From Coriobacteriaceae bacterium AM100-PB1-1D-6A (GTDB taxonomy: Bacteria > Actinomycetota > Coriobacteriia > Coriobacteriales > Coriobacteriaceae), in assembly GCA_027660625.1 (NCBI GenBank), contig JAQDNC010000023.1:1-10746 (forward strand): a stretch of DNA of 10,746 bases. The letters are read 5' to 3'. Both the position numbers and the translations under genes were made by a program. The notes beneath the pieces were generated by a model, which was not told the DNA's origin, did not search any database, and saw only the letters and a program-made list of their open reading frames with translations. Position 1 is the first letter of the stretch; each line of letters opens with the position of its first letter. This document shows, in pieces, positions 830 through 10,743 of the stretch.

Positions 830-2285
830 CGGCGACCGCCCCCTTCAGGAACCCGTCGTAGACCGACAGGTCGGGCCCGCCGGCCCCGCCGCCGCCACCC
901 GCGATGCGCCTCGCCAGCACGTCGACCGTGGCGTCGTCGGGGACGCGGCCGCCCTCGACGACCCTGAGCGCCGCCTCGCAGGCCGCCTCGAAACCCGAGG
1001 ACTCGCTCGCCCGGCCGATCGACCTGAGCGTGCGCCTCCTGCCGGCGGAGTCCATCCGGTCGATCCCCTCGACGAGCCCCGGCGGCATGTCGCGCCTGAT
1101 CGTCGACTCCCCGAAGGCCCTCGGCCTGGCGATGATGGCGGGCACGAGCGAGAGGGGGTTCCGGACCGCGGGGCCCTCCCCGAAGGCCCTGGGGAGGACG
1201 GCGACCCGGCGGCCGCGGTCGGCGAGGATCTCCACCGTCGACGCGCGCATGCCGACGAGCAGGCTCCGCCCGTGCCAGGCGGGCCCGGCGACGTACTCGC
1301 GCCCGTCGGCCTCGACGTAGCCGCGCTTGTCGGCGCGGGCGGTGACCCACCTCACCGCGTCGAACTCCACGCCGGGAAGGGCGCGCATGGCGGCGAGGTC
1401 CTCCCGGTAGGCCTCCCCGTGCGGCCTGCCGTCGCGGCAGCGCGCCGCCGCGTTGACCCTCGCGCACCCCTCGGCGAGGAACGCGTTGAGCTCGGGGAGC
1501 GTGCCGAACGCCGGCACGGGGACGAGGAGGTTGCGCCGGAGGAACCCCACGGCGTTCTCGACGGAGCCCTTCTCGTTTCCCGAATAGGGGTTGCAGTACC
1601 GGCTCTCGAAGCGGTAGTGGGCCCTGAACTGCGAGAACAGCCTCGATTCCGTGACCTCGCCGCGTACCATCCTGCCCGCCTCGGTGGCGTTGTCGAGCAC
1701 CATCGCCGCCGGGGCGCGGCCCCAGCGGCGGAAGATCTCGAGCAGCCCGGCGCACAGGCACTCCGACCTCTGCGACATGAGGGCGACGCACTGCCGGTCG
1801 TTCGAGTGCGGAAGCGTCGCGACCAGCAGCTTGAGGTCGAGGGCCCTCCCTCCGACCGCGGCGCGGAAGTTCCCGAAATCGACCTGGCAGGTGCCGGGCG
1901 CCCACTCGAGCTCGAGGTACCCCTCTCCGCCCGCGGCCGCCCGGGCAAGCCTGAGCTCGCGGACGAACCTCTGCACGGTGGAGTACGAGCCGCCGTAGCC
2001 GCGCTCGGCGACGAGCCTGTAGTAGATCCGCCTGGCGGTGTGGCGCTGCTTCCTCGGGGCCCCGAGGTCGGCCTCGAGAACGCCCGCGATCCATTCCTCG
2101 TTGCCCTCGAGCGCGGGCCTGCCCCTCCTCTGGGGCATCGGCGCGACGGGCGACATGTCCTCCATGTCGGCGTACTTCGCCACGGTGTTCCGGCTCACGT
2201 GGAGCACTCTGGCGATTTCGGACCTCGAGCGCCCGGCGGCATCCATCGACCGTATATCATTCACTGTGTCCAGGGGCACGGTCAT
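819..2285 (-). CDS. istA: IS21-family transposase IstA
   Basis: This is the DDE transposase of the element, 488 residues from the chosen ATG. An N-terminal helix-turn-helix at about residues 20-38 (SEIARVLHVSRNTVAKY) would bind the terminal repeats. The RNase H-like catalytic core shows D136 (CQVDFG), D198 (MVLDNAT) and E243 (NEKGSVEN), so the DDE triad is complete. The start is uncertain. ATGs at 2294 and 2285 are in frame three codons apart, and the nearby GGAAGG and GGAGGAG are too close to either ATG to decide. I chose 2285 because MTVPLDTVNDIR reads like a typical IstA start. Two strong hairpins sit in its leader. Confidence 0.95.
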   Translation of the reverse strand: MTVPLDTVNDIRSMDAAGRSRSEIARVLHVSRNTVAKYADMEDMSPVAPMPQRRGRPALEGNEEWIAGVLEADLGAPRKQRHTARRIYYRLVAERGYGGSYSTVQRFVRELRLARAAAGGEGYLELEWAPGTCQVDFGNFRAAVGGRALDLKLLVATLPHSNDRQCVALMSQRSECLCAGLLEIFRRWGRAPAAMVLDNATEAGRMVRGEVTESRLFSQFRAHYRFESRYCNPYSGNEKGSVENAVGFLRRNLLVPVPAFGTLPELNAFLAEGCARVNAAARCRDGRPHGEAYREDLAAMRALPGVEFDAVRWVTARADKRGYVEADGREYVAGPAWHGRSLLVGMRASTVEILADRGRRVAVLPRAFGEGPAVRNPLSLVPAIIARPRAFGESTIRRDMPPGLVEGIDRMDSAGRRRTLRSIGRASESSGFEAACEAALRVVEGGRVPDDATVDVLARRIAGGGGGAGGPDLSVYDGFLKGAVADGS

Positions 2286-2298
2286 CTCCTCCATCCTT

Positions 2299-2330
2299 CC
2301 CGGGCGGGCTCGCCAAAGTAACCGCCCGGG
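2299..2330. promoter_or_regulatory. Hairpin in the istA leader
   Basis: A perfect 9-bp inverted repeat, CCCGGGCGG at 2299-2307 and CCGCCCGGG at 2322-2330, ends just before the upstream istA ATG. In the mRNA it would fold beside the ribosome binding region and could limit transposase translation. The regulatory role is inference. Confidence 0.6.
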
Positions 2331-2343
2331 GAAACCATACGGC

Positions 2344-2379
2344 GAGGGCCGCGCCCCCGGTCCCCGGGGCGCGGCCCTC
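2344..2379. terminator. Strong GC hairpin between IS right end and istA
   Basis: A perfect 14-bp inverted repeat has arms at 2344-2357 (GAGGGCCGCGCCCC) and 2366-2379 with an 8-base loop. It lies between the terminal repeat and istA. It could stop or stall transcription entering the element from outside, or act as a terminator on the plus strand, where CTTGCTT follows. There is no clean T tract, so a terminator is only one reading. Confidence 0.55.
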
Positions 2380-2387
2380 TTGCTTAA

Positions 2388-2455
2388 ACTGCTCAATTTT
2401 TCGTGCTCACGGTGCTCATTTCCCAGTGATCACTCGGACCACTTCTTAGTGAACA
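2388..2455. repeat. IS21 right terminal repeats, three units
   Basis: On the minus strand three units of 22-23 bp run inward: TGTTCACTAAGAAGTGG at 2455-2434, GTGATCACTGGGAAATGAG at 2433-2411 and GTGAGCACGAAAAATTGAG at 2410-2388. The repeated GT..CAC....AA.TG pattern supports an IS end at about 2455 rather than at the shorter match ending at 2418. The end was placed by pattern, not by a target duplication. Confidence 0.6.
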
Positions 2456-3432
2456 TCAACAACACCGAGCTTGCGCCAACGAGCTATGAAAGAGAAGCGT
2501 ACGATTGCAGGCATATCGAAGACCTATTCGGTGCGTTTCAGACAATTGAGGGGCTAACTCCCGATCTAATCGAAGAAACATATGCCGAAGCTCGTCGTAC
2601 GGGAAAATACAAACCATCAGAGCTTGTACGAATCAATGCGAAACTGCGTCAGATTCTGTCGAATGCAGTCGCAAAGAGAATAATTGACCGAAACCCCTGC
2701 GCTACCGTTCATGTTCGCAGACCACGCAACAAAAGAGAATCACTGACAATCGACCAAGTAGCTACCCTATGCACACATCTTCAACACATTGAGCTCACCG
2801 CCGAAGCTGTTGGTACGCTAGTACTAGTGTATACGGGTATGCGAAAAGGCGAGATGCTGGGCCTCGAATGGCGCGATTGGGACCCTGCCAATAAAACCTT
2901 GAAAATTGACAGGCAGTACACCAACGATCATGAACTGAGGGCACCCAAGTCACAAGAAAGCCAACGCAAAATCCCCGTTGGAGAAACCTTGGCCGAACGT
3001 CTTCAATCATGGTCAGCCATACAAAAAGAGCTCCTGGCCTCTCTGGGGCTGTCCCAGACTGGCAGCACTCCCATCATTAGCGATATTGCTGTCGAGCAAG
3101 GGGTCCCTACTGTCTGTCACATGAAAAACTACATCTTCAACCATTGGTTTCGCGATTTCGCAGTTAGCTGCAATCTTGGAATCTATGAGCCGAACAATTC
3201 GACTGGCGGAAAACTATATAAGGGCATCTGCCCGCATCAGCTCAGGCATTGCGTAAGCACTTTTATGCTGGCGAACGGATCGGACGTTAGAAGCGTGCAA
3301 GGTATTCTTGGCCACGCGGACCCCAATATCACGCTCAAAACGTATACAAGCCTCGTTCAACAATCAGAAATAAAAGCGGTTAAAGGCTACGAAGACTTCA
3401 TCAACGCCCATATACAGAGAAGCGAGAAATAG
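2456..3432 (+). pseudogene. int: Tyrosine site-specific recombinase (integrase), 5'-truncated by IS21
   Basis: About 325 residues remain. The core-binding SAM-like domain starts at about LAPTSYERE, followed by a full catalytic domain. The first catalytic arginine is at codon 2842-2844 (TGMRKGE). The HQLRH block, GHAD and the nucleophile tyrosine (TYTSL, codon 3343-3345) are all visible. The N-terminal arm-binding region and start codon are missing because the IS lies directly upstream. The reading frame stays open backwards into the IS as far as 2038, so a chimeric product cannot be excluded, but that upstream stretch is antisense istA. The downstream excisionase-like gene fits an integration module. 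Codon use is less GC-rich than in the IS. Confidence 0.9.
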
Positions 3433-3650: not shown

Positions 3651-3896
3651 ATGGCTACACCAAAGATTAGCACTCAGGCGTCCACACCGACTTTCCCCAC
3701 TGGTGCCGCTCAGTGCGATCGGTTGCTCCGCGTTAACGATATCCGCGAACTCACTGGCTGGAGCGAAAACACCGCGCGCAAGTTTATGCGTGAGTCCGGC
3801 AAGCTCATCCAAATCCATCGCTCGAATTACATGTTTGAAAGCTCGTTCTACGAACTTTTCAAGCAGCTTGAAGGTCGTACCGCCCACCTTGACTAG
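3651..3896 (+). CDS. Excisionase-like helix-turn-helix protein
   Basis: This is an 81-residue protein. After a polar N-terminal tail of about 25 residues comes one DNA-binding unit at about residues 26-50 (LLRVNDIRELTGWSENTARK), followed by a wing-like part (IHRSNYMFESSFYELF). This fold and size match the excisionase / MerR-type HTH proteins that bend att DNA and bias integrases toward excision. GAAAGGA lies 10 bases before the ATG. The position just after a tyrosine integrase supports the role. The next gene starts 9 bases after its stop, so the two are probably co-transcribed. A simple transcription regulator remains possible. Confidence 0.72.
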   Translation: MATPKISTQASTPTFPTGAAQCDRLLRVNDIRELTGWSENTARKFMRESGKLIQIHRSNYMFESSFYELFKQLEGRTAHLD

Positions 3897-3905
3897 GCGG
3901 TAAAC

Positions 3906-4292
3906 ATGAGCGATCTACCGTCGATTTCCGACAGATATTCCGATGATGTTACTGAGCAACGAGAGATTAGAAGGAAAATGGATAACGCGAATTTTATTTC
4001 GGTGCCCGACTGGGCGTGTTGTGCCACCACTGTCGCTGCCGAGCGCCTCATCCTCGGCCTAGTATGGAAGCTTGGCAATCCTTCCAAAAACAAACGAGCC
4101 ATGGGCTTTTACGCAAAAAGCAAATGGATTGAGGAGCGCTACCACCTGAGTAAGAACACGATCTCCCGGGCCTATACCTCTTTGAAGGATAAGGGGTTTA
4201 TGCAAAAAGCGGGCGATGGCAGCTGGATGCTTAATTACGCTACAATCTACCGCGCCGCGATTGAAAACGCTTGGGAGCCCCCGAAATCTTAA
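3906..4292 (+). CDS. Winged helix-turn-helix protein (replication-initiator-like or regulator)
   Basis: This is a 128-residue protein. Residues 45-65 (ERLILGLVWKLGNPSKNK) and 69-100 (YAKSKWIEERYHLSKNTISR, then LKDKGFMQK) read as the two halves of an HTH_36-type winged helix: a first helix, a recognition helix with SKNTISRA, then a wing. This domain occurs at the N terminus of many phage and plasmid replication initiators and alone in small regulators. No helicase or primase domain follows, so it is either a regulator or a reduced replication protein. The ribosome site is weak (GGCGG) but the gene follows the excisionase stop by 9 bases, suggesting coupling. A hairpin lies downstream at 4349-4388. 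Confidence 0.7.
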   Translation: MSDLPSISDRYSDDVTEQREIRRKMDNANFISVPDWACCATTVAAERLILGLVWKLGNPSKNKRAMGFYAKSKWIEERYHLSKNTISRAYTSLKDKGFMQKAGDGSWMLNYATIYRAAIENAWEPPKS

Positions 4293-4348
4293 GTCCACAG
4301 ACCGACTATCGACGTGGGCTTCTGTCAAACAACCGAGTTAAAAACCAC

Positions 4349-4388
4349 TGAGCCAGAATCCGCTTCAATAGAAGAGGATTCTGGCTCA
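4349..4388. terminator. Perfect 13-bp hairpin, terminator-like on the minus strand
   Basis: TGAGCCAGAATCC (4349-4361) and GGATTCTGGCTCA (4376-4388) are exact inverted repeats with a 14-base loop. Read on the minus strand the stem is followed by GTGGTTTTTA, a reasonable U tract. On the plus strand, after the winged-HTH gene, no T run follows. It may be a terminator for minus-strand transcription or a protein-binding palindrome. Confidence 0.5.
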
Positions 4389-4389
4389 A

Positions 4390-4638
4390 ATGATATCCGA
4401 CCGTTCGCGCAGCGATGTCTACCGCAATCTGGTAAGAATCGAGGACGGAGAAACCGTCATCGAGGTCGTGAAGGTCGGTAATCGCCAGGCGTCTACAAAA
4501 ACATGCCGCGGATGTAAAATGAAACAGGGTCGAACCGAAACAGTTCCCGGACAATTGGCGTCCGGCCAGACACTTCGATTCGACCCTTTTTCATGCCCGC
4601 ATCTAAAACAATCCCATAATCATTCTCGACATCTTTAA
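4390..4638 (+). CDS. Doubtful short open frame, possible gene remnant
   Basis: This is an 82-codon frame. The first 35 residues (for example NLVRIEDGETVIEVVKVGNR) use codons like a real gene. The rest (CRGCKMKQGR, then HLKQSHNHSRHL) looks like noise. AGAGG lies 12 bases before the ATG, inside the preceding hairpin, which is poor placement. I do not recognise it. It could be a decayed 5' fragment of a larger gene or chance. Confidence 0.2.
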   Translation: MISDRSRSDVYRNLVRIEDGETVIEVVKVGNRQASTKTCRGCKMKQGRTETVPGQLASGQTLRFDPFSCPHLKQSHNHSRHL

Positions 4639-4823
4639 CGCCATCACTCTCCCGCCACCAACACGTCGTAGGTGCCATTTTCAACGAATCGATATGGCCG
4701 TCCATTCATGGTCTTTAAGGCGCGTGATACCATGAAAACGTGCGGTATTTCTCCAACCGAAAACCTGCGTGAATGCATGACTTGAGACGCCTTTTAGAAC
4801 TCACCGATCGCAGGGCGAACACA

Positions 4824-5500: not shown

Positions 5501-5541
5501 TTCTAGGAACCTTCTAGAGCGCTTCTAGAAGGTTCCTAGAA
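5501..5541. repeat. Perfect 18-bp inverted repeat between convergent genes
   Basis: TTCTAGGAACCTTCTAGA (5501-5518) is the exact reverse complement of 5524-5541, with a 5-base loop GCGCT. It lies between the coiled-coil stop and the phosphoesterase operon and contains the stop codon of the last phosphoesterase (5514-5516). There is no T tract on either side, so a classical terminator is not clear. A bidirectional RNA stem that blocks 3' decay, or a protein site, is equally possible. Confidence 0.75.
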
Positions 5542-6251
5542 CCGGGCGCAGCACTTTCGATCGGCACGATGTCTCGGTAGACAAGGCGATGCTCGGCATC
5601 GCACCATTTGTCGCCGTGGTAGTGGCCGAAGAACCATGATCGGTAGCCGAGCCGGCCGTCGAGCTCGGCAAGGAATCGCTGAAGTCGGTCGCCCCGATAC
5701 TCGCGCCCGCGCTCCCGGCACAGCCCCTCAGCAAGGGCGGCAGGGGCCTCGTGAGTCACAACGTGGTCGACTTTCCAGCCCATGCGGTCGAGCGAGGCGC
5801 GGCAGCGCCCCATCTCTTCCTCGCTCGGCATCTCCTCGGGCCACCAGCTCCTCCCCTCCCTGCGATACTGCCTGTCGTTGCTCGCGGCGCCGCCCATGGC
5901 AAGGACCGTGAGCCCGTCGATATCGAACACCTCTCCGCGCATCAGGTGCAGCACGTGCGGTCGTGCCTCATGGACGAGCCCGCCGTTCCACTCCCGCACC
6001 GGCAGCCCGGCCAGGGCGTGGTGGTTCTCATGGTTGCCGTCTACGAAACACGTGGTCCAGGGCTTCGACTCGAACCAGTCGAGCCAATACCTCTCAGCAT
6101 TCGAGTCATCCCAGACAAAGCCGAAGTCGCCGGCCACGATCACCGCGTCATCGCGCGTCAGGGTCCGGCCCAGCGGCCAATTTTTGAATGCAAACCGGCT
6201 GGACCCGTACTCGGCCCTGCCGTGCACGTCGCCTGTCACATAGACCGTCAT
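5514..6251 (-). CDS. Calcineurin-like metallophosphoesterase, first paralogue (last gene of the operon)
   Basis: This is a 245-residue cytosolic phosphoesterase of the dimetal calcineurin-like superfamily. Metal-site motifs run in order: GDVHG (D8, H10), AGDFG (D42), GNHE (72-75), THEAP (H167) and GHYH (209-212). All expected ligands are present. The substrate cannot be told from sequence, and members cleave phosphomonoesters or diesters in nucleotides, nucleic acids or proteins. The ATG at 6251 shares one base with the stop of the preceding gene (TGATG), so translation is coupled and the upstream in-frame start at 6266 is unlikely. It closely resembles its neighbour (MTVYVTGD start, WWPEE/WWPQE), indicating tandem duplication. 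Its last residues are encoded inside the 18-bp hairpin. Confidence 0.9.
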   Translation of the reverse strand: MTVYVTGDVHGRAEYGSSRFAFKNWPLGRTLTRDDAVIVAGDFGFVWDDSNAERYWLDWFESKPWTTCFVDGNHENHHALAGLPVREWNGGLVHEARPHVLHLMRGEVFDIDGLTVLAMGGAASNDRQYRREGRSWWPEEMPSEEEMGRCRASLDRMGWKVDHVVTHEAPAALAEGLCRERGREYRGDRLQRFLAELDGRLGYRSWFFGHYHGDKWCDAEHRLVYRDIVPIESAAPGSRNLLEAL

Positions 6252-6976
6252 CAGTACGCACCCCACGGCAGGAGTTTGTCCCCGAGCCTCACGATCCGGT
6301 CATACAGCACCGTGTGCCGTTCGTCCGGATTGCCGTCTCGGTGAAAATGGCCGTAATACCAGTGCTTATAGTCCAGGCGGTCCTCGAGCTCGTCGAGGAA
6401 TCCGGTCAGCCGGTCCACATCGGGGCGTTCCCAGCCTGGGTCCGGGTAGAGCGTCGGCGAGAGCATGCGCGTGGCGCAGGTATGGGTGATGACGCAGTCG
6501 ACCTTCCAGCCGACCTCGTCGAGCTTTGCCCGCGCGGCATCGAATTCGCGCTCATCCGGGAGCTCCTGAGGCCACCAGCTGGAATACGGCACGCGGTATT
6601 CCCTGTCCACGCTCGTGGCACCGCCCATGGTGAAGATTGTCGAACCGGCGAGCTCGAAGACCTCGCCGCGCGTCAGGCGCCGAATGGGCGAGGTGTCCGA
6701 CAGGCGCTGCGTCAGCCCGCCATGCCACGGCTCCATGGGGCGCTCCTCCCAGTGATCGAAGCGCTCGTGGTTGCCGTCGACGAACAGTACCGTGTAGGGG
6801 CGCGATTCCAGCCAAGCGATGTCGGCGCATTCCTCGGCAGAAAAGCCCCACGGAAAGCCAAAGTCACCGGCAACGATGAGATAGTCGTCGCTGGTAAGAC
6901 TGTCGCCAAGCTCCCAGTCGCGGAGCTTTTGCATGTCGAGCCCACCGTGGATGTCGCCCGTCACATAGACCGTCAT
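6251..6976 (-). CDS. Calcineurin-like metallophosphoesterase, second paralogue
   Basis: This is a 241-residue protein with an intact dimetal centre: GDIHG (D8, H10), AGDFG (D38), GNHE (68-71), THTC (H165) and GHFH (209-212). It shares the order of motifs, the MTVYVTGD start, RGEVFE and the MGGA.S.DR.YR...SWWP block with the following gene, so the two arose by duplication within this lineage. It has diverged in the region after H165, which often shapes substrate choice. The ATG at 6976 overlaps the stop of the upstream phosphoesterase by four bases (ATGA). The reading frame continues upstream, but that part is the shifted frame of the preceding gene. Function beyond phosphoester hydrolysis is unknown. 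Confidence 0.9.
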   Translation of the reverse strand: MTVYVTGDIHGGLDMQKLRDWELGDSLTSDDYLIVAGDFGFPWGFSAEECADIAWLESRPYTVLFVDGNHERFDHWEERPMEPWHGGLTQRLSDTSPIRRLTRGEVFELAGSTIFTMGGATSVDREYRVPYSSWWPQELPDEREFDAARAKLDEVGWKVDCVITHTCATRMLSPTLYPDPGWERPDVDRLTGFLDELEDRLDYKHWYYGHFHRDGNPDERHTVLYDRIVRLGDKLLPWGAY

Positions 6977-7611
6977 CGGATCGCCTCTTCCCTCTTGTAC
7001 GCCGCCAGCTCGCGCTCGACCTGCCTGTCGCCGGTCTCGTTGACCCACCAGGGCCATTTCACCCGGCCGCACGGCTCGTCGACCCCGGCGAACCATTCCC
7101 TCAGCCCGTCGAGGCTCACCGGGGAGTGCCCGTTGGCATCGCAACCGACGTCGTAGCGCAGAAGGCCCTGCTTGCGGTTGAACTCGTTGTACGCGCCGCC
7201 GCTGCTGTGGATGTGCCCGTGGAGGTGCCACGATCCATGGTTCATGCCCTGCCAGTCGGCCATGGGGTAATGGCTCAGGACGATCTTCTGCCCGTCGATC
7301 TTGAGCACGCAGATCGGCGGCTCCACGGTGAAGGCGCCCGCGACCGCCGGCTGGGTCCAGTCCTTGTCGTGGTTTCCCGGGACGAGGTGGATGCGCCTGC
7401 AGGCGATCTGCTTGCGCAGCCCGTAGGCGTCCTGGGCGGTCATCTTGAATGAGAAATCCCCCAGGATGTAGAGCTCGTCGTCCACGGCGACCCTGCCGTT
7501 GATGTTGTCGACGATGGCGTCGTTCATCTGCCAAATCGTCTCCCACGGGCGGTCGGTGAACTTCAGCACGTTCTCATGCCCGAAGTGGGTATCGCTGGTA
7601 AACCAGATCAT
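6973..7611 (-). CDS. Metallophosphoesterase of a different subfamily (first gene of the operon)
   Basis: This is a 212-residue protein with motifs SDTHFGHENV (D7, H9), LGDFSF (D52), GNHD (79-82), SHYP (113-116) and HGHIH (131-135), the pattern of small stand-alone phosphoesterases common in phages and plasmids. It is not closely similar to the two following paralogues. AAGGAG lies 8 bases before the ATG at 7611, a better start than the in-frame TTG at 7704, which would add 31 residues encoded by a hairpin. It is the promoter-proximal gene of a three-gene operon joined by overlaps. The leader contains an attenuator-like hairpin, so expression of the whole set may be controlled there. Confidence 0.9.
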   Translation of the reverse strand: MIWFTSDTHFGHENVLKFTDRPWETIWQMNDAIVDNINGRVAVDDELYILGDFSFKMTAQDAYGLRKQIACRRIHLVPGNHDKDWTQPAVAGAFTVEPPICVLKIDGQKIVLSHYPMADWQGMNHGSWHLHGHIHSSGGAYNEFNRKQGLLRYDVGCDANGHSPVSLDGLREWFAGVDEPCGRVKWPWWVNETGDRQVERELAAYKREEAIR

Positions 7612-7627
7612 ATTTATGTCTCCTTCT

Positions 7628-7677
7628 GTCGCTAAAAAACGTTCTCCTTCGAGGTCAGGAGACGTTTTATGAGCGAC
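7628..7677 (-). promoter_or_regulatory. Attenuator-like hairpin in the phosphoesterase leader
   Basis: On the minus strand GTCGCTCATAAAACGT, then CTCCT, pairs with AGGAG, then AACGTTTTTTAGCGAC, around the loop GACCTCGA. The two 21-base arms are nearly complementary. The inner stem (ACGTCTCCT with AGGAGAACGT) is followed at once by TTTTT, the form of an intrinsic terminator. It ends 17 bases before the first phosphoesterase ATG, so it would act as a transcription attenuator of the operon. Confidence 0.6.
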
Positions 7678-7697
7678 ATGAGGTGCATATCCCTCAT
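7632..7697 (-). CDS. Possible 21-residue leader peptide
   Basis: An ATG at 7697 with GGAG (7709-7706) 8 bases upstream opens a 21-codon frame (MRDMHLMSLIKRLLTSKENV then F). Its stop lies immediately after the T run of the attenuator-like hairpin. A ribosome translating it would cover the hairpin, which suggests ribosome-mediated attenuation. The peptide has no obvious run of one amino acid that would name an effector, and the same region is open in another frame as an N-terminal extension of the phosphoesterase. This is inference from arrangement only. Confidence 0.3.
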   Translation of the reverse strand: MRDMHLMSLIKRLLTSKENVF

Positions 7698-7698
7698 G
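7677..7698 (-). promoter_or_regulatory. Second small hairpin in the phosphoesterase leader
   Basis: CATGAGG (7677-7683) and CCTCATG (7692-7698) form an exact 7-bp stem directly upstream of the attenuator-like hairpin. In the minus-strand transcript it would fold over the start codon of the possible leader peptide. Confidence 0.45.
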
Positions 7699-7740
7699 TT
7701 TCAAGCTCCAATCTGTCGGGTTTGCCCAACTAAAAGTTTA

Positions 7741-7764
7741 CGCCCACGCGCCCACGCGCCCACG
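7741..7764. repeat. Three tandem copies of CGCCCACG
   Basis: The 8-bp unit CGCCCACG is repeated three times without interruption, followed by CGCG. It sits between the phosphoesterase leader and the promoter of the predicted small RNA. It may be a slippage-prone repeat or a set of short protein-binding sites. Confidence 0.8.
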
Positions 7765-7791
7765 CGCGAACAGGATTTGATTTTTGAAATA

Positions 7792-7821
7792 TGGACAAAT
7801 TCCTCGTCAGGAGGGTAGAAT
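7792..7821 (+). promoter_or_regulatory. Promoter of the predicted antisense RNA
   Basis: TGGACA (7792-7797) and TAGAAT (7816-7821), separated by 18 bases, give a good sigma-70-type promoter on the plus strand. Transcription would start near 7828. No protein-coding frame with a ribosome site follows before the terminator at 7881-7914. Confidence 0.6.
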
Positions 7822-7827
7822 GGTGCC

Positions 7828-7914
7828 GACGGCAGCCCAAGTTGTAGTGAGCTGGGCAGAGCCGTTGCTTAATAGAGTTAGGTCATCGTCTTAGCGACGG
7901 TGACCTTTCTTTTT
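7828..7914 (+). ncRNA. Predicted small antisense RNA (antitoxin candidate)
   Basis: The RNA of about 87 bases is bounded by a promoter and an intrinsic terminator. Its 5' part folds into a strong stem-loop: ACGGC (7829-7833) with GCCGT (7861-7865) and GCCCA (7835-7839) with TGGGC (7853-7857). An A-rich single-stranded link follows, then the terminator hairpin. Its 3' part (7891-7914) is complementary to the last codons of the small hydrophobic protein gene, which is transcribed toward it. Convergent overlap at the 3' ends is the plan of type I antitoxins such as RatA, SR4 and the Fst/par RNA II. No homologue is claimed. Expression is unproven. Confidence 0.5.
7881..7914 (+). terminator. Intrinsic terminator of the antisense RNA
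   Basis: GGTCATCGTC (7881-7890) pairs with GACGGTGACC (7896-7905), nine Watson-Crick pairs and one G-U, with the loop TTAGC. The stem is followed by TTTCTTTTT. On the opposite strand the T run encodes the lysine-rich tail of the small protein, so both functions share the same bases. Confidence 0.7.
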
Positions 7915-8016
7915 GGGCTTCGAGCCCTGCTTGAGTGCCTTGGAAAGGCCGACAAGGGCCGTGAGGAGCGAGACCGTAGCGGTCAGGAGCTTCACGAGCT
8001 CGGTGAAATCGGTCAT
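7891..8016 (-). CDS. Small hydrophobic peptide, type I toxin candidate
   Basis: This is a 41-residue protein starting MTDFTELVKLLTATVSLLTA. Residues 7-24 form one hydrophobic stretch long enough to span a membrane, and the tail (KALKQGSKPKKKGHRR) is strongly basic. This layout matches the small membrane toxins of type I systems and the holin-like toxin group, though no specific family is recognised. The start is well supported: GGGAGGTGAT, almost the full anti-16S complement, ends GGAGG 8 bases before the ATG at 8016. The Shine-Dalgarno can be masked by a 5' hairpin (8025-8042). Its 3' end overlaps an oppositely transcribed small RNA. Alternatives are a small holin or an unrelated membrane peptide. 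Confidence 0.65.
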   Translation of the reverse strand: MTDFTELVKLLTATVSLLTALVGLSKALKQGSKPKKKGHRR

Positions 8017-8024
8017 GGGCATCA

Positions 8025-8042
8025 CCTCCCATCGAATGGAGG
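8025..8042 (-). promoter_or_regulatory. Hairpin masking the ribosome site of the small peptide gene
   Basis: In the minus-strand mRNA, CCTCC (8042-8038) can pair with the Shine-Dalgarno GGAGG (8029-8025) around the loop ATTCGATG. Type I toxin mRNAs often hide their ribosome site in such a 5' stem, so translation is low unless the RNA is refolded or processed. Confidence 0.5.
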
Positions 8043-8079
8043 GCTCTGCCCGGCACGAGGGCTGCCGACAGCAAGGACG

Positions 8080-8088
8080 ATTCTATCA
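8080..8088 (-). promoter_or_regulatory. Extended -10 promoter of the small peptide gene
   Basis: TGATAGAAT on the minus strand (8088-8080) is an extended -10 element, with no good -35 at normal spacing. Transcription would start near 8073, leaving a leader of about 57 bases. The leader carries CGGCAGCCC (8067-8059) and GGGCAGAGCC (8051-8042), the same pair of blocks as in the antisense RNA. Confidence 0.5.
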
Positions 8089-8203
8089 GAGCGGCTGACT
8101 CCCGCCGATCAATTCATACTCCTCACCCTCGCCGAATTGCGAGCATGAAAGAATCGGCACTGGATGGCAGCACGCCAGGGCACCGACGATAGGCTCTCCA
8201 AAA

Positions 8204-9403
8204 CTAGCGAGGCGTGTCTCCGCGAGCGTAATCGCCTCGGTCGACCGCACGATCGATCTGCGGCGAGATGTCGACGTTGCCACCATGGGCTCGGCCTGCG
8301 GCGCGAACGCGGTCATCGCCAGCATCGGGAACGGCGCCGGCGTAACGGTTTCGAATCTCCCTTGCGTAACCGCGCCGGGCAAGAAGCTCATCACGAACCG
8401 CCGGATCCTCGAGCAGATCTTCATCGCACTTCGGTGCGATGAACTTAGGGAAGAGATTGTAGGCGACGCCCTTGCTCGCCTTTGCCTGCTCGACCCACGC
8501 CGAATACGCTTTCTTAAGCCGTTGAATGTAAATCTCGCAACGCCTCTCATAAGGAAGGGCTCGCTCGGCTTCCAGCACGTTATTTTTAAAGGCCGCCTCA
8601 AGCTGCTTGATCGCAAACCGCCCGTCAAGACGGGTCAGGTTGAAAGTGCATTTCGGATTGCCGGCCTCCTTGATATCGAGATCCGTCGCATAGACTCGGT
8701 TGTTCTTAATGAAAATCTCTACGCCCCATGAGGCAAGTAACTTTTTGAACTGCTCCATAGTCTTCGGGTGATAGTCGTTGATTGCAATATGGATCAACTC
8801 GCGCAAATTGTTTTTATAGCTGTACTCTCCCCGATCGACAATTTTCTTTTCAGTGTCGCGCGGCTGTCGGTCTCGAATCTTCGAGTTCTTCTTTCCCTTT
8901 TCGAGCTGAGCGAGATTCCAGGCCTTGTCCATTTCACGAACCCACGCAGCGCGTTCGTACTTTCCGCGACGCCCACCCGTCTCGCAACGCTTACCCGTCA
9001 AAAGATCCGTGCGGTTAATCGCCATATGGACCGCGTAACGTTTTCCCGCCCTATCGCTTTCCTCATGCAAGGCGACAATCACTTGTTGATGCGGGTAGTG
9101 TTTCGCAAGCCATTGCTCCGCGTAGGCCATACATGCATCGGGGGTCATCTTGCCTCCGTTGCAGCTGCACTCCTCGGGAAGAAACGCAAGAACCTGATGA
9201 AGCATCGTTATGTTCTTCGCGCCGGCACGCGCAGGCCTGTCGTGATGAAACATCTTCCGCGTCATAGCCATCTCGGAAAACCAGTGCTTTCGGTTCGCGA
9301 GGTTCCAGCCGCCGCGGGCCAAAGCGTACTTTCCGTTAATGTACTTGCGCACGTTCTTCGCATAGCGCTCGGACGAAACACCTTTCTGCTTAACGACGGT
9401 CAT
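8204..9403 (-). CDS. Mobilization relaxase (MOBP-like)
   Basis: This is a 399-residue protein. Relaxases nick oriT, stay bound to the 5' end through a tyrosine and lead single-stranded DNA into the recipient. The N-terminal third carries the features expected: a candidate nucleophile Tyr21 in RKYINGK and the metal-binding part LHEESDRAGKRYAVHMAIN (H113, H126, N130), resembling motif III of MOBP/MobA relaxases. The C-terminal part is charged and lacks a helicase or primase motif. The ATG at 9403 has GGTGATC upstream and overlaps mobC by 14 bases, so the pair is one operon. No VirD4 or mating-pore gene is seen, so transfer would need a helper element. The exact MOB class is inferred from motifs only. 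Confidence 0.85.
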   Translation of the reverse strand: MTVVKQKGVSSERYAKNVRKYINGKYALARGGWNLANRKHWFSEMAMTRKMFHHDRPARAGAKNITMLHQVLAFLPEECSCNGGKMTPDACMAYAEQWLAKHYPHQQVIVALHEESDRAGKRYAVHMAINRTDLLTGKRCETGGRRGKYERAAWVREMDKAWNLAQLEKGKKNSKIRDRQPRDTEKKIVDRGEYSYKNNLRELIHIAINDYHPKTMEQFKKLLASWGVEIFIKNNRVYATDLDIKEAGNPKCTFNLTRLDGRFAIKQLEAAFKNNVLEAERALPYERRCEIYIQRLKKAYSAWVEQAKASKGVAYNLFPKFIAPKCDEDLLEDPAVRDELLARRGYAREIRNRYAGAVPDAGDDRVRAAGRAHGGNVDISPQIDRAVDRGDYARGDTPR

Positions 9404-10117: not shown

Positions 10118-10588
10118 CTACTTGCGCCCCGGCCCCCTATCGAAGGGGTCCTCGTACTCCTTGACGCTCAGCCGGTCGAGCGCGATGTCGGCCCTCTCCT
10201 GCTCCCGGATGTACTTCGCGATCGTGGCCTCGTTCAGGCCGACGGTGGACACGTAGTAGCCCTCGGCCCAGAACTTCCTGTTGCCGAACTTGTACTTCAT
10301 GTTCGCGTGCCTGTCGAATATCATCAGCGAGCTCTTCCCCTTCAGGTAGCCCATGACGCTCGCGACGCTGTACTTCGGCGGTATCGCCAGCAGCATGTGG
10401 ACGTGGTCGGGCATCAGGTGCCCCTCGATGATCTCGATCCCCTTGTACTGGCAGAGCTTCCTGAAGATCTCCCCAAGGTCGGACCTTATTTGGTTGTAGA
10501 TGACTTTGCGCCTATACTTCGGCGTGAACACGACGTGGTACTTGCACATCCACTTCGTGTGCGACAGGCTGTAGGCCTTCTGGGCCAT
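10118..10588 (-). CDS. tnpA: IS200/IS605-family Y1 transposase TnpA
   Basis: This is a 156-residue single-strand DNA transposase of the HUH class. The HUH motif is H62-V-H64 (PDHVHMLL) and the catalytic tyrosine is Y126 (IAKYIREQ), the same spacing as in well-studied IS200/IS605 enzymes. The N-terminal block (KYHVVFTPKYRRK) is characteristic of the family. The length is complete. I chose the ATG at 10588 because the family begins a few residues before this block. Upstream codons continue in frame but encode GC-rich hairpin DNA. The ribosome site (GGTGG) is weak, in line with the low expression typical of IS200. There is no tnpB alongside. Confidence 0.93.
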   Translation of the reverse strand: MAQKAYSLSHTKWMCKYHVVFTPKYRRKVIYNQIRSDLGEIFRKLCQYKGIEIIEGHLMPDHVHMLLAIPPKYSVASVMGYLKGKSSLMIFDRHANMKYKFGNRKFWAEGYYVSTVGLNEATIAKYIREQERADIALDRLSVKEYEDPFDRGPGRK

Positions 10589-10656
10589 ACGCCACCACCG
10601 CCCTCTCGACTCGGATTCCTTGCGGCCTGAACAATCGCAAGTGTCCGGCGAGGGGG

Positions 10657-10743
10657 CGGCTTTGTAAAGCCGTTTGGCCCCACCCGCATAGCGGGTGGTT
10701 TCTGATGCGGCGCGCTGCGCGCCCCGCACAGGCTAAAGCCTGT
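10657..10743. repeat. Cluster of four stem-loops upstream of tnpA
   Basis: Exact inverted repeats lie at 10657-10672 (CGGCTT/AAGCCG), 10680-10698 (CCACCCGC/GCGGGTGG), 10709-10723 (GGCGCGC/GCGCGCC) and 10728-10743 (ACAGGCT/AGCCTGT). The last is the best candidate for the left-end hairpin recognised by TnpA. The others may block incoming transcription, as known for IS200. Confidence 0.65.

Follow-up and report, generated by a model that had tools for sequence, protein, structure and literature searches.

Does a small hydrophobic reading frame, faced by a promoter that leads into a short structured RNA, form a type I toxin-antitoxin pair with that RNA, or does the arrangement have another meaning? 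The locus at issue lies in a window of 10,746 nt (the whole stretch of DNA that was analysed), and an earlier note had read it as such a pair, situated between the cargo and mobilization genes of a mobile element. The parts named there are all present in the sequence: a 41-codon frame for a hydrophobic peptide with a basic tail and a strong ribosome site, a facing promoter (TGGACA, 18 bases, TAGAAT), and a terminator-like hairpin that lies over the 3' end of the peptide gene and includes its stop codon. The two-gene module is real and selected, and not a product of chance.

The locus and the element that carries it

The features of the module are as follows; the mirror motif is a sequence found at both predicted transcript starts.

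7792-7821 (+): promoter of the RNA, TGGACA-18-TAGAAT; 10/12 match, with the -10 box also seen in relatives
7828-7914 (about) (+): structured RNA, the predicted antitoxin; it overlaps the peptide gene in its last 7 codons and stop codon
7828-7866 (+): 5' hairpin of the RNA, GACGGC-A-GCCCA ... TGGGC-AGA-GCCGTT, containing the mirror motif; from the fold and the RNA model
7880-7914 (+): 3' hairpin of the RNA with a T-run, terminator-like, spanning the peptide stop codon; from sequence and stability
7891-8016 (-): gene of the 41-aa peptide, predicted toxin, MTDFTELVKLLTATVSLLTALVGLSKALKQGSKPKKKGHRR; from sequence and homologues
8016-8014 (-): ATG of the peptide gene
7893-7891 (-): stop codon of the peptide gene
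8030-8023 (-): Shine-Dalgarno sequence GGGAGGTG, with 8 nt separating GGAGG from the ATG
8088-8080 (-): extended -10 box of the peptide mRNA, TGATAGAAT; from sequence
8020-8073 (-): leader of the peptide mRNA
8059-8070 (-): mirror motif in the leader, part one (TGTCGGCAGCCC)
8042-8051 (-): mirror motif in the leader, part two (GGGCAGAGCC)
8023-8042 (-): hairpin in the leader between an anti-Shine-Dalgarno sequence, CCTCCAT (8042-8036), and the Shine-Dalgarno sequence GGGAGGTG (8030-8023)

The RNA and the peptide gene share positions 7891-7914 on opposite strands; with this overlap and its hairpins, the RNA gene has the properties of an antisense gene of conserved structure, complementary to the predicted toxin mRNA. 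The peptide is small (<~60 aa), hydrophobic and of membrane type, and its location in the membrane is predicted. Its best 19-residue Kyte-Doolittle mean is 1.83 (1.53-2.55 across 14 representatives) and its net charge is +7; the peptide of one relative (G106) has a net charge of 0, which we count against the type I reading. AlphaFold2, given the single sequence, returned one helix covering residues 4-30 (mean pLDDT 84.3). Purifying selection acts on the peptide, with pn/ps values of 0.21 among nine distinct sequences of the MTDF type, 0.40 among 12 of the MTDL type, and 0.51 between the types.

The peptide mRNA is expected to start near 8073, and its -10 box (TAGAAT) is retained in most of the Collinsella copies whose leader is intact. 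Folding of the leader predicts an occluded ribosome site: the Shine-Dalgarno sequence was predicted to be more occluded than in shuffled leaders for 55 of the 63 distinct parsed leaders, with a mean unpaired probability of 0.20 versus 0.37 after shuffling, in a set of which about one third are close Collinsella relatives and one member (G204a) was parsed wrongly.

A relaxase (PF03432), a NikA-like protein (PF21983), and a tyrosine integrase (PF00589) are all encoded in the window, and together with an IS21-like pair and an IS200-type transposase they mark the DNA as a mobilizable element. The IS21-like istA/istB frames and the IS200-type transposase are found close to the window termini (86-2396 and 10118-10729), and the integrase frame (2038-3432) runs into the beginning of the istA frame. 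The placement between cargo and mob genes proposed in the earlier note agrees with what we find, as mob genes adjoin the module, the integrase is on the same element, and homologues of the module occur on circular Collinsella plasmids. Phosphoesterase-type genes also adjoin it (5514-7611, minus strand), and three Collinsella aerofaciens plasmids have such genes next to the module as well. PF00149 is matched at 6251-6976 and 6973-7611 (minus strand); a further frame at 5514-6266 (minus strand) resembles these two genes.

Folding and conservation of the RNA

The RNA at 7828-7914 has a predicted folding energy of -41.5 kcal/mol (z = -5.97), and none of 200 shuffled sequences was as stable. Promoter-like and terminator-like sites are in themselves unenriched in the window (2 found versus 3.0 expected, and 12 found versus 9.7 expected, respectively), and the significance of the module therefore derives from its folding and conservation. 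A covariance model, R2, with the window in its training set, scores the window RNA at 86.5 bits. When 76 distinct RNAs were aligned to this model, 93.4% of the cells of the 5' hairpin were paired versus 90.6% in shuffles (0/500), and sliding the pairing partners by 1-3 columns left 25-56% of the cells paired. Changes on both sides of a pair were seen in 39 cells of the same alignment versus 17.4 in shuffles (0/500), with one pair (UA 37, CG 30) carrying most of the covariation signal. The two covariation measures that are least affected by relatedness, which we count against the type I reading, were not raised among these 76 RNAs: 3 pairs had a double change versus 2.5 in shuffles (237/500), and further pair types numbered 13 versus 12.5 (226/500).

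The alignments differ in how far they can be read. A2, the first of them, gave 8 pairs in RNAalifold, 0 of which had double changes, and our own structure had 3 double-change cells in it, a value that 17/500 shuffles attained; in this alignment the 3' hairpin is out of place, as is the upper stem of G223 and G263. A3, the larger alignment, is fitted to the model and so biased to its structure, and it contains a few probable chance matches, e.g. L004:6664-6759. As far as these aligned sequences go, the predicted 5' hairpin is conserved and shows some covariation.

In 76/76 RNAs, the 3' part exceeds shuffled sequence in stability. We take this as a better measure than the at least 7 pairs likewise found in 76/76, a count that discriminates little given that A3 is model-fitted. 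At least five T within the 10 nt past the 3' hairpin were found for 28 of the 76 RNAs on the RNA strand versus none of 76 on the mRNA strand, with mean T counts of 3.6 and 0.9, respectively; the exception is G026a, where inspection by eye shows T-runs on both strands. Given that the T-tail lies mainly on the RNA strand, the peptide mRNA probably often continues through the RNA gene.

Distribution, mobility and decay of the family

The conserved block reaches from -10 box to -10 box (7813-8093), which is the exact extent of the match obtained with the query 7600-8300 in a 900-kb chromosome-like record; a search with the query preset to 7810-8095 is uninformative about the block ends. An alignment of 27 copies has flanks that diverge beyond the block. 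The closest DNA relatives, on three Collinsella aerofaciens plasmids, are 85-95% identical across 67-72% of window positions 7600-8300, and the plasmid search returned four records, all from Collinsella, of which the 900-kb one looks chromosomal. No relative was found among the phages and viral contigs searched.

Both the small-protein search and the covariance search that the earlier note proposed found the module in related genomes. The peptide is present in 19 of 43 Collinsella genomes, with at most four copies in each (E<=0.001). A peptide profile matches 27 of 396 Coriobacteriia genomes, in 6 of 153 genera (E<=0.01), where the 27 include G276 (a match within a 391-aa frame, probably by chance) and G258 (a broken frame). 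A large protein set yielded 627 proteins at E<=0.1; four of the best 120 are named, as hypothetical proteins of Collinsella. For the RNA, a covariance model built from 21 sequences (R1), whose overlap with the peptide gene is limited to the codons of the tail, matches 89/396 Coriobacteriia genomes at E<=0.01 and 48/396 at E<=1e-6, the latter in 13 genera and 3 families by hand count. In a phylum-wide sample of 396 genomes, the sister model R2 matched 0 genomes outside Coriobacteriia at E<=1e-6 (best value outside, 6.1e-6), and 28 of the 40 genomes that it matched at E<=0.01 were outside the class. A leader or hydrophobic small ORF was present at 0 of the nine outside-class RNA matches inspected, one of which (G492) ends at a contig edge. 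We regard E<=0.01 as unspecific for the RNA model and therefore count at E<=1e-6.

The RNA model also points to peptide genes: at 31 of 47 further RNA matches, a convergent hydrophobic small ORF with a ribosome site is located at the RNA 3' end. The criteria (30-65 aa, opposite strand, Shine-Dalgarno sequence, hydrophobic stretch, net positive second half) are passed by 81/4000 random windows of the fetched loci, module DNA included, and by 0/940 shuffled windows. The 16 matches without a qualifying ORF count against the type I reading; among them, G288a, G290, G270a, G319, and G204c have a remnant of the peptide end beside an intact RNA. Weak matches to the RNA model also lie 2-5 kb from the module at L004:6664-6759 and, similarly, in G013, G020, G031, and G032; the L004 match, inside an ammonium transporter gene, is probably chance in conserved coding DNA.

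Each divergent genome inspected (G026, G080, G106, G158, G223, G263, G302) has the whole layout in at least one copy, and incompleteness concerns single copies (G223d, without the leader motif; G263b, without a clear start; G258, with a broken frame). Homologous loci retain the frame, leader, hairpins, and -10 boxes. The earlier note would have given up its reading had the peptide frame and the terminator hairpin varied freely among such loci; alignment, profile, and RNA-model comparisons find both of them conserved. This comparative evidence would fit equally well a regulated, non-toxic small membrane peptide that modulates a membrane protein and whose level is tuned by the cis-antisense RNA, and the LexA-like control of some copies described below would suit a stress peptide. 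However, copies scattered over plasmids and chromosomes, patchy presence (19/43), and frequent decay resemble a selfish or addictive module more, and we judge a non-toxic peptide of this kind to be unlikely.

Decay was classified for 41 distinct Collinsella copies found via the peptide, of which, by crude script criteria, 24 have both parts, 13 the RNA only, 3 the peptide only, and 1 neither. The three peptide-only copies have lost the tail end together with the RNA. We considered and rejected an asymmetric retention of the antitoxin, as the pattern is not clean and decay is not one-sided. A role of the RNA as the main player, acting in trans as a small RNA with the peptide gene as its decaying passenger, would explain why the RNA persists in 13/41 copies that lack an intact peptide and why several other genomes have the RNA beside a peptide remnant. 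But 24/41 copies retain both parts, the peptide is selected, and the leader matches its own RNA best (see below), which makes this explanation very improbable. A decayed form in which a common sequence has replaced the 5' part of the peptide gene and the RNA hairpin is kept recurs in L014, L019, L022, L023, L025, L032, L038, L041, L042, and L045; the common replacement suggests that an already broken copy spread or was inherited.

At one chromosomal site, a segment of ~720 bp is absent from six near relatives (L211-L213, L216, L217, L219). This absence, the many copies, and the fact that the conserved block ends at inverted repeats could be taken to mean that the repeats are the termini of a miniature mobile element, with the peptide being incidental. 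The segment in L004 (about 3926-4644), however, is larger than the module, and its boundaries are formed by a direct repeat (about 26-32 bp) rather than by the inverted repeats. This comparison of one chromosomal site with six empty relatives weakens the idea of a MITE or transposon, as the segment ends away from the inverted repeats. The ends of the repeats are the -10 boxes and the expected 5' ends of the transcripts, and the peptide is under purifying selection; a miniature element thus has next to no weight in our judgement. A palindromic repeat of the TGTGACAAAGGG..CCCTTTGTCACA type flanks the L004 segment at 3894-3925 and 4645-4676 and recurs near many copies.

Unexpected features and relation to known systems

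Two features seen on comparing these sequences were unexpected, namely a motif shared in the same sense by the 5' ends and a LexA-box-like site in some other copies. Both predicted transcripts start, close to the expected 5' end, with the same motif, about RACGGC ... GGCAGNGCC, which in the DNA forms an inverted repeat flanking the peptide gene. Its sequence is specific to the locus: across 27 modules, which were hand-chosen and still include relatives by descent, cognate leaders and RNAs score 8.15 versus 5.90 for non-cognate ones in similarity of the 5' tract, and 8.67 versus 8.05 for the 9-mer, and 0/20000 permutations reach either cognate value. The outcome was the same for 19 of these modules, which represent 17 genera (8.26 versus 6.05, and 8.74 versus 8.19), and paralogues within a genome (G310a/G310b, G166a/G166c) are locus-specific, too. 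Counterexamples are L016, L035, G106, G342, and G224b, where the leader differs from the RNA, and G225 and G231a, whose leaders are fitted equally well or better by most other RNAs. That the two 5' elements pair directly with each other was rejected as the reason for the motif, given that cofolding is not cognate-specific (-5.24 versus -4.77 kcal/mol; 704/5000 permutations as good, in a set where the RNAs of G094a and G263a are wrongly excised or off register). The motif may reflect a binding partner common to both RNAs, or the two repeats may have been homogenised. To our knowledge, no described type I system has a 5' motif of this kind, shared by its two transcripts in the same sense and specific to the locus.

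LexA-box-like sites (at most one mismatch, within 130 nt upstream) accompany 21 of 72 parsed leaders, whereas none of 169 background windows, drawn from downstream parts of these sequences, has one. Eighteen of the 21 belong to MTDL-type Collinsella copies (CGAACATATATTCG or CGAACAAACATTCG) and likely share one ancestry; the others are G209a, G368 (a perfect site), and G190, and by eye the site is also present in G094b and G263b, both outside the parsed set. The peptide promoter of the window copy has no such site, and so not the LexA box that TisB-like SOS control would call for. Upstream of six recA loci of the genus tested (L180-L184, L187) lies a perfect CGAACN4GTTCG, and 12/12 lexA loci have two or three sites, every one of them with a single mismatch.

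We assign a probability of about 0.7 to the reading that the module functions as a type I toxin-antitoxin pair. This reading draws on the layout, the ORFs pulled out by the RNA model, the pairing of the 5' hairpin, the stability of the 3' part, the pn/ps values, and the occluded Shine-Dalgarno sequence, as well as on the presence of up to four copies per genome, the plasmid copies, the LexA-like sites, and the AlphaFold2 helix. The null covariation measures, decay in both directions, lack of cognate cofolding, and absence of a Pfam or NCBIfam family count against it. In such a pair, the peptide, with its single hydrophobic helix and basic tail, would act at the cell membrane, and the RNA would pair with the 3' part of the mRNA (the last 7 codons, the stop codon, and probably the 3' untranslated region), leading to decay of the mRNA or keeping it untranslated. 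The leader hairpin may hold translation back long enough for the RNA to act. The module would serve for stability on plasmids and on the window element, and some other copies might be induced by DNA damage via LexA.

The earlier note had likened the layout to that of TxpA/RatA, BsrG/SR4, and Fst/par; the convergent overlap bears this out, and the likeness ends with the T-tail, which is mainly on one strand, and with the 5' ends, which are inverted copies. Fst/par (RNAI/RNAII) of Gram-positive plasmids comprises a peptide gene and a convergent antisense RNA that overlap in a hairpin, with 5' repeats at both ends that make the two RNAs complementary and with a bidirectional terminator. The module shares the convergent layout, the hairpin overlap, the repeats at both 5' ends, and the plasmid setting. 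In contrast to Fst/par, its 5' repeats are inverted, so that the transcripts share sequence there rather than complementing each other, and its T-tail is mainly on the RNA strand; complementary 5' repeats and a bidirectional terminator are thus not what we see in the module, save for the T-runs noted by eye in G026a. A relation of the peptide to Fst did not emerge from the Pfam-A and NCBIfam scan of 10 representatives, none of which scored above cut-off. The TxpA/RatA and BsrG/SR4 systems of Bacillus also have a convergent antisense RNA overlapping at the 3' end and a hydrophobic peptide with a charged tail, as does the module, which differs from them in its mirrored 5' motif and in the anti-Shine-Dalgarno sequence beside the Shine-Dalgarno sequence in the leader. 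Pfam, NCBIfam, and Rfam gave nothing at cut-off in the module that would relate its peptide or RNA to TxpA or BsrG.

The antitoxin gene of TisB/IstR-1 is arranged differently from that of the module. TisB of E. coli is described as a small membrane toxin induced via LexA (PMC8145889, PMC7708055), and the likeness consists in the LexA-box-like site of some module copies, which is absent from the window copy. Its Pfam model is the nearest toxin model, matched by the peptide of the relative G080 below cut-off (E 0.095, 13.6 bits; cut-off 25). For MsoT1/MsoA1 of Microcystis (Cyanobacteria), toxicity and rescue in E. coli have been reported (PMC12390103), whereas the Coriobacteriia module is known from sequence. 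Of six cyanobacterial candidates in that paper, four were without effect in E. coli. Collinsella-1 RNA (RF01700) is described as a structured RNA of Collinsella (PMC2864571); we rejected it as the same element, as it is located elsewhere in the genomes searched and has no match to the window.

The module is most likely a new type I toxin-antitoxin family, judged by database comparison: ten representative peptides have no Pfam or NCBIfam family above cut-off, and Rfam, searched to E 1, matches nothing in the window. Sub-threshold Rfam matches to antisense RNAs (rdlD, RNAI, ctRNA_p42d) in 2/7 relatives are not relied on. Among the matches listed in the open-licence PMC literature (preprints excluded), no title concerns a type I system of Collinsella or other Coriobacteriia. 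A wider proposal, which we put forward tentatively and consider rather doubtful, is a class-wide type I superfamily, the first in Actinomycetota, in which the shared locus-specific 5' motif would be recognized by one factor, perhaps the peptide's own basic tail, that co-controls toxin mRNA and antitoxin RNA beyond antisense pairing, with some chromosomal branches being SOS-wired. One 2025 report states that, until the cyanobacterial case, Proteobacteria, Firmicutes, and Tenericutes were the only phyla with known type I systems, a narrow range thought to reflect search bias (PMC12390103). If the type I reading is true, a family from the Coriobacteriia, which are common gut bacteria, would extend these systems to Actinomycetota. 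The family supplies RNA and peptide alignments for testing, offers a candidate module for plasmid stability and DNA damage in organisms with few genetic tools, and raises the new question of what keeps the 5' motif the same in two convergent transcripts. The window also contains an 8-bp tandem repeat, CGCCCACG, at 7741-7767, upstream of the RNA promoter, and its copy number varies among relatives.
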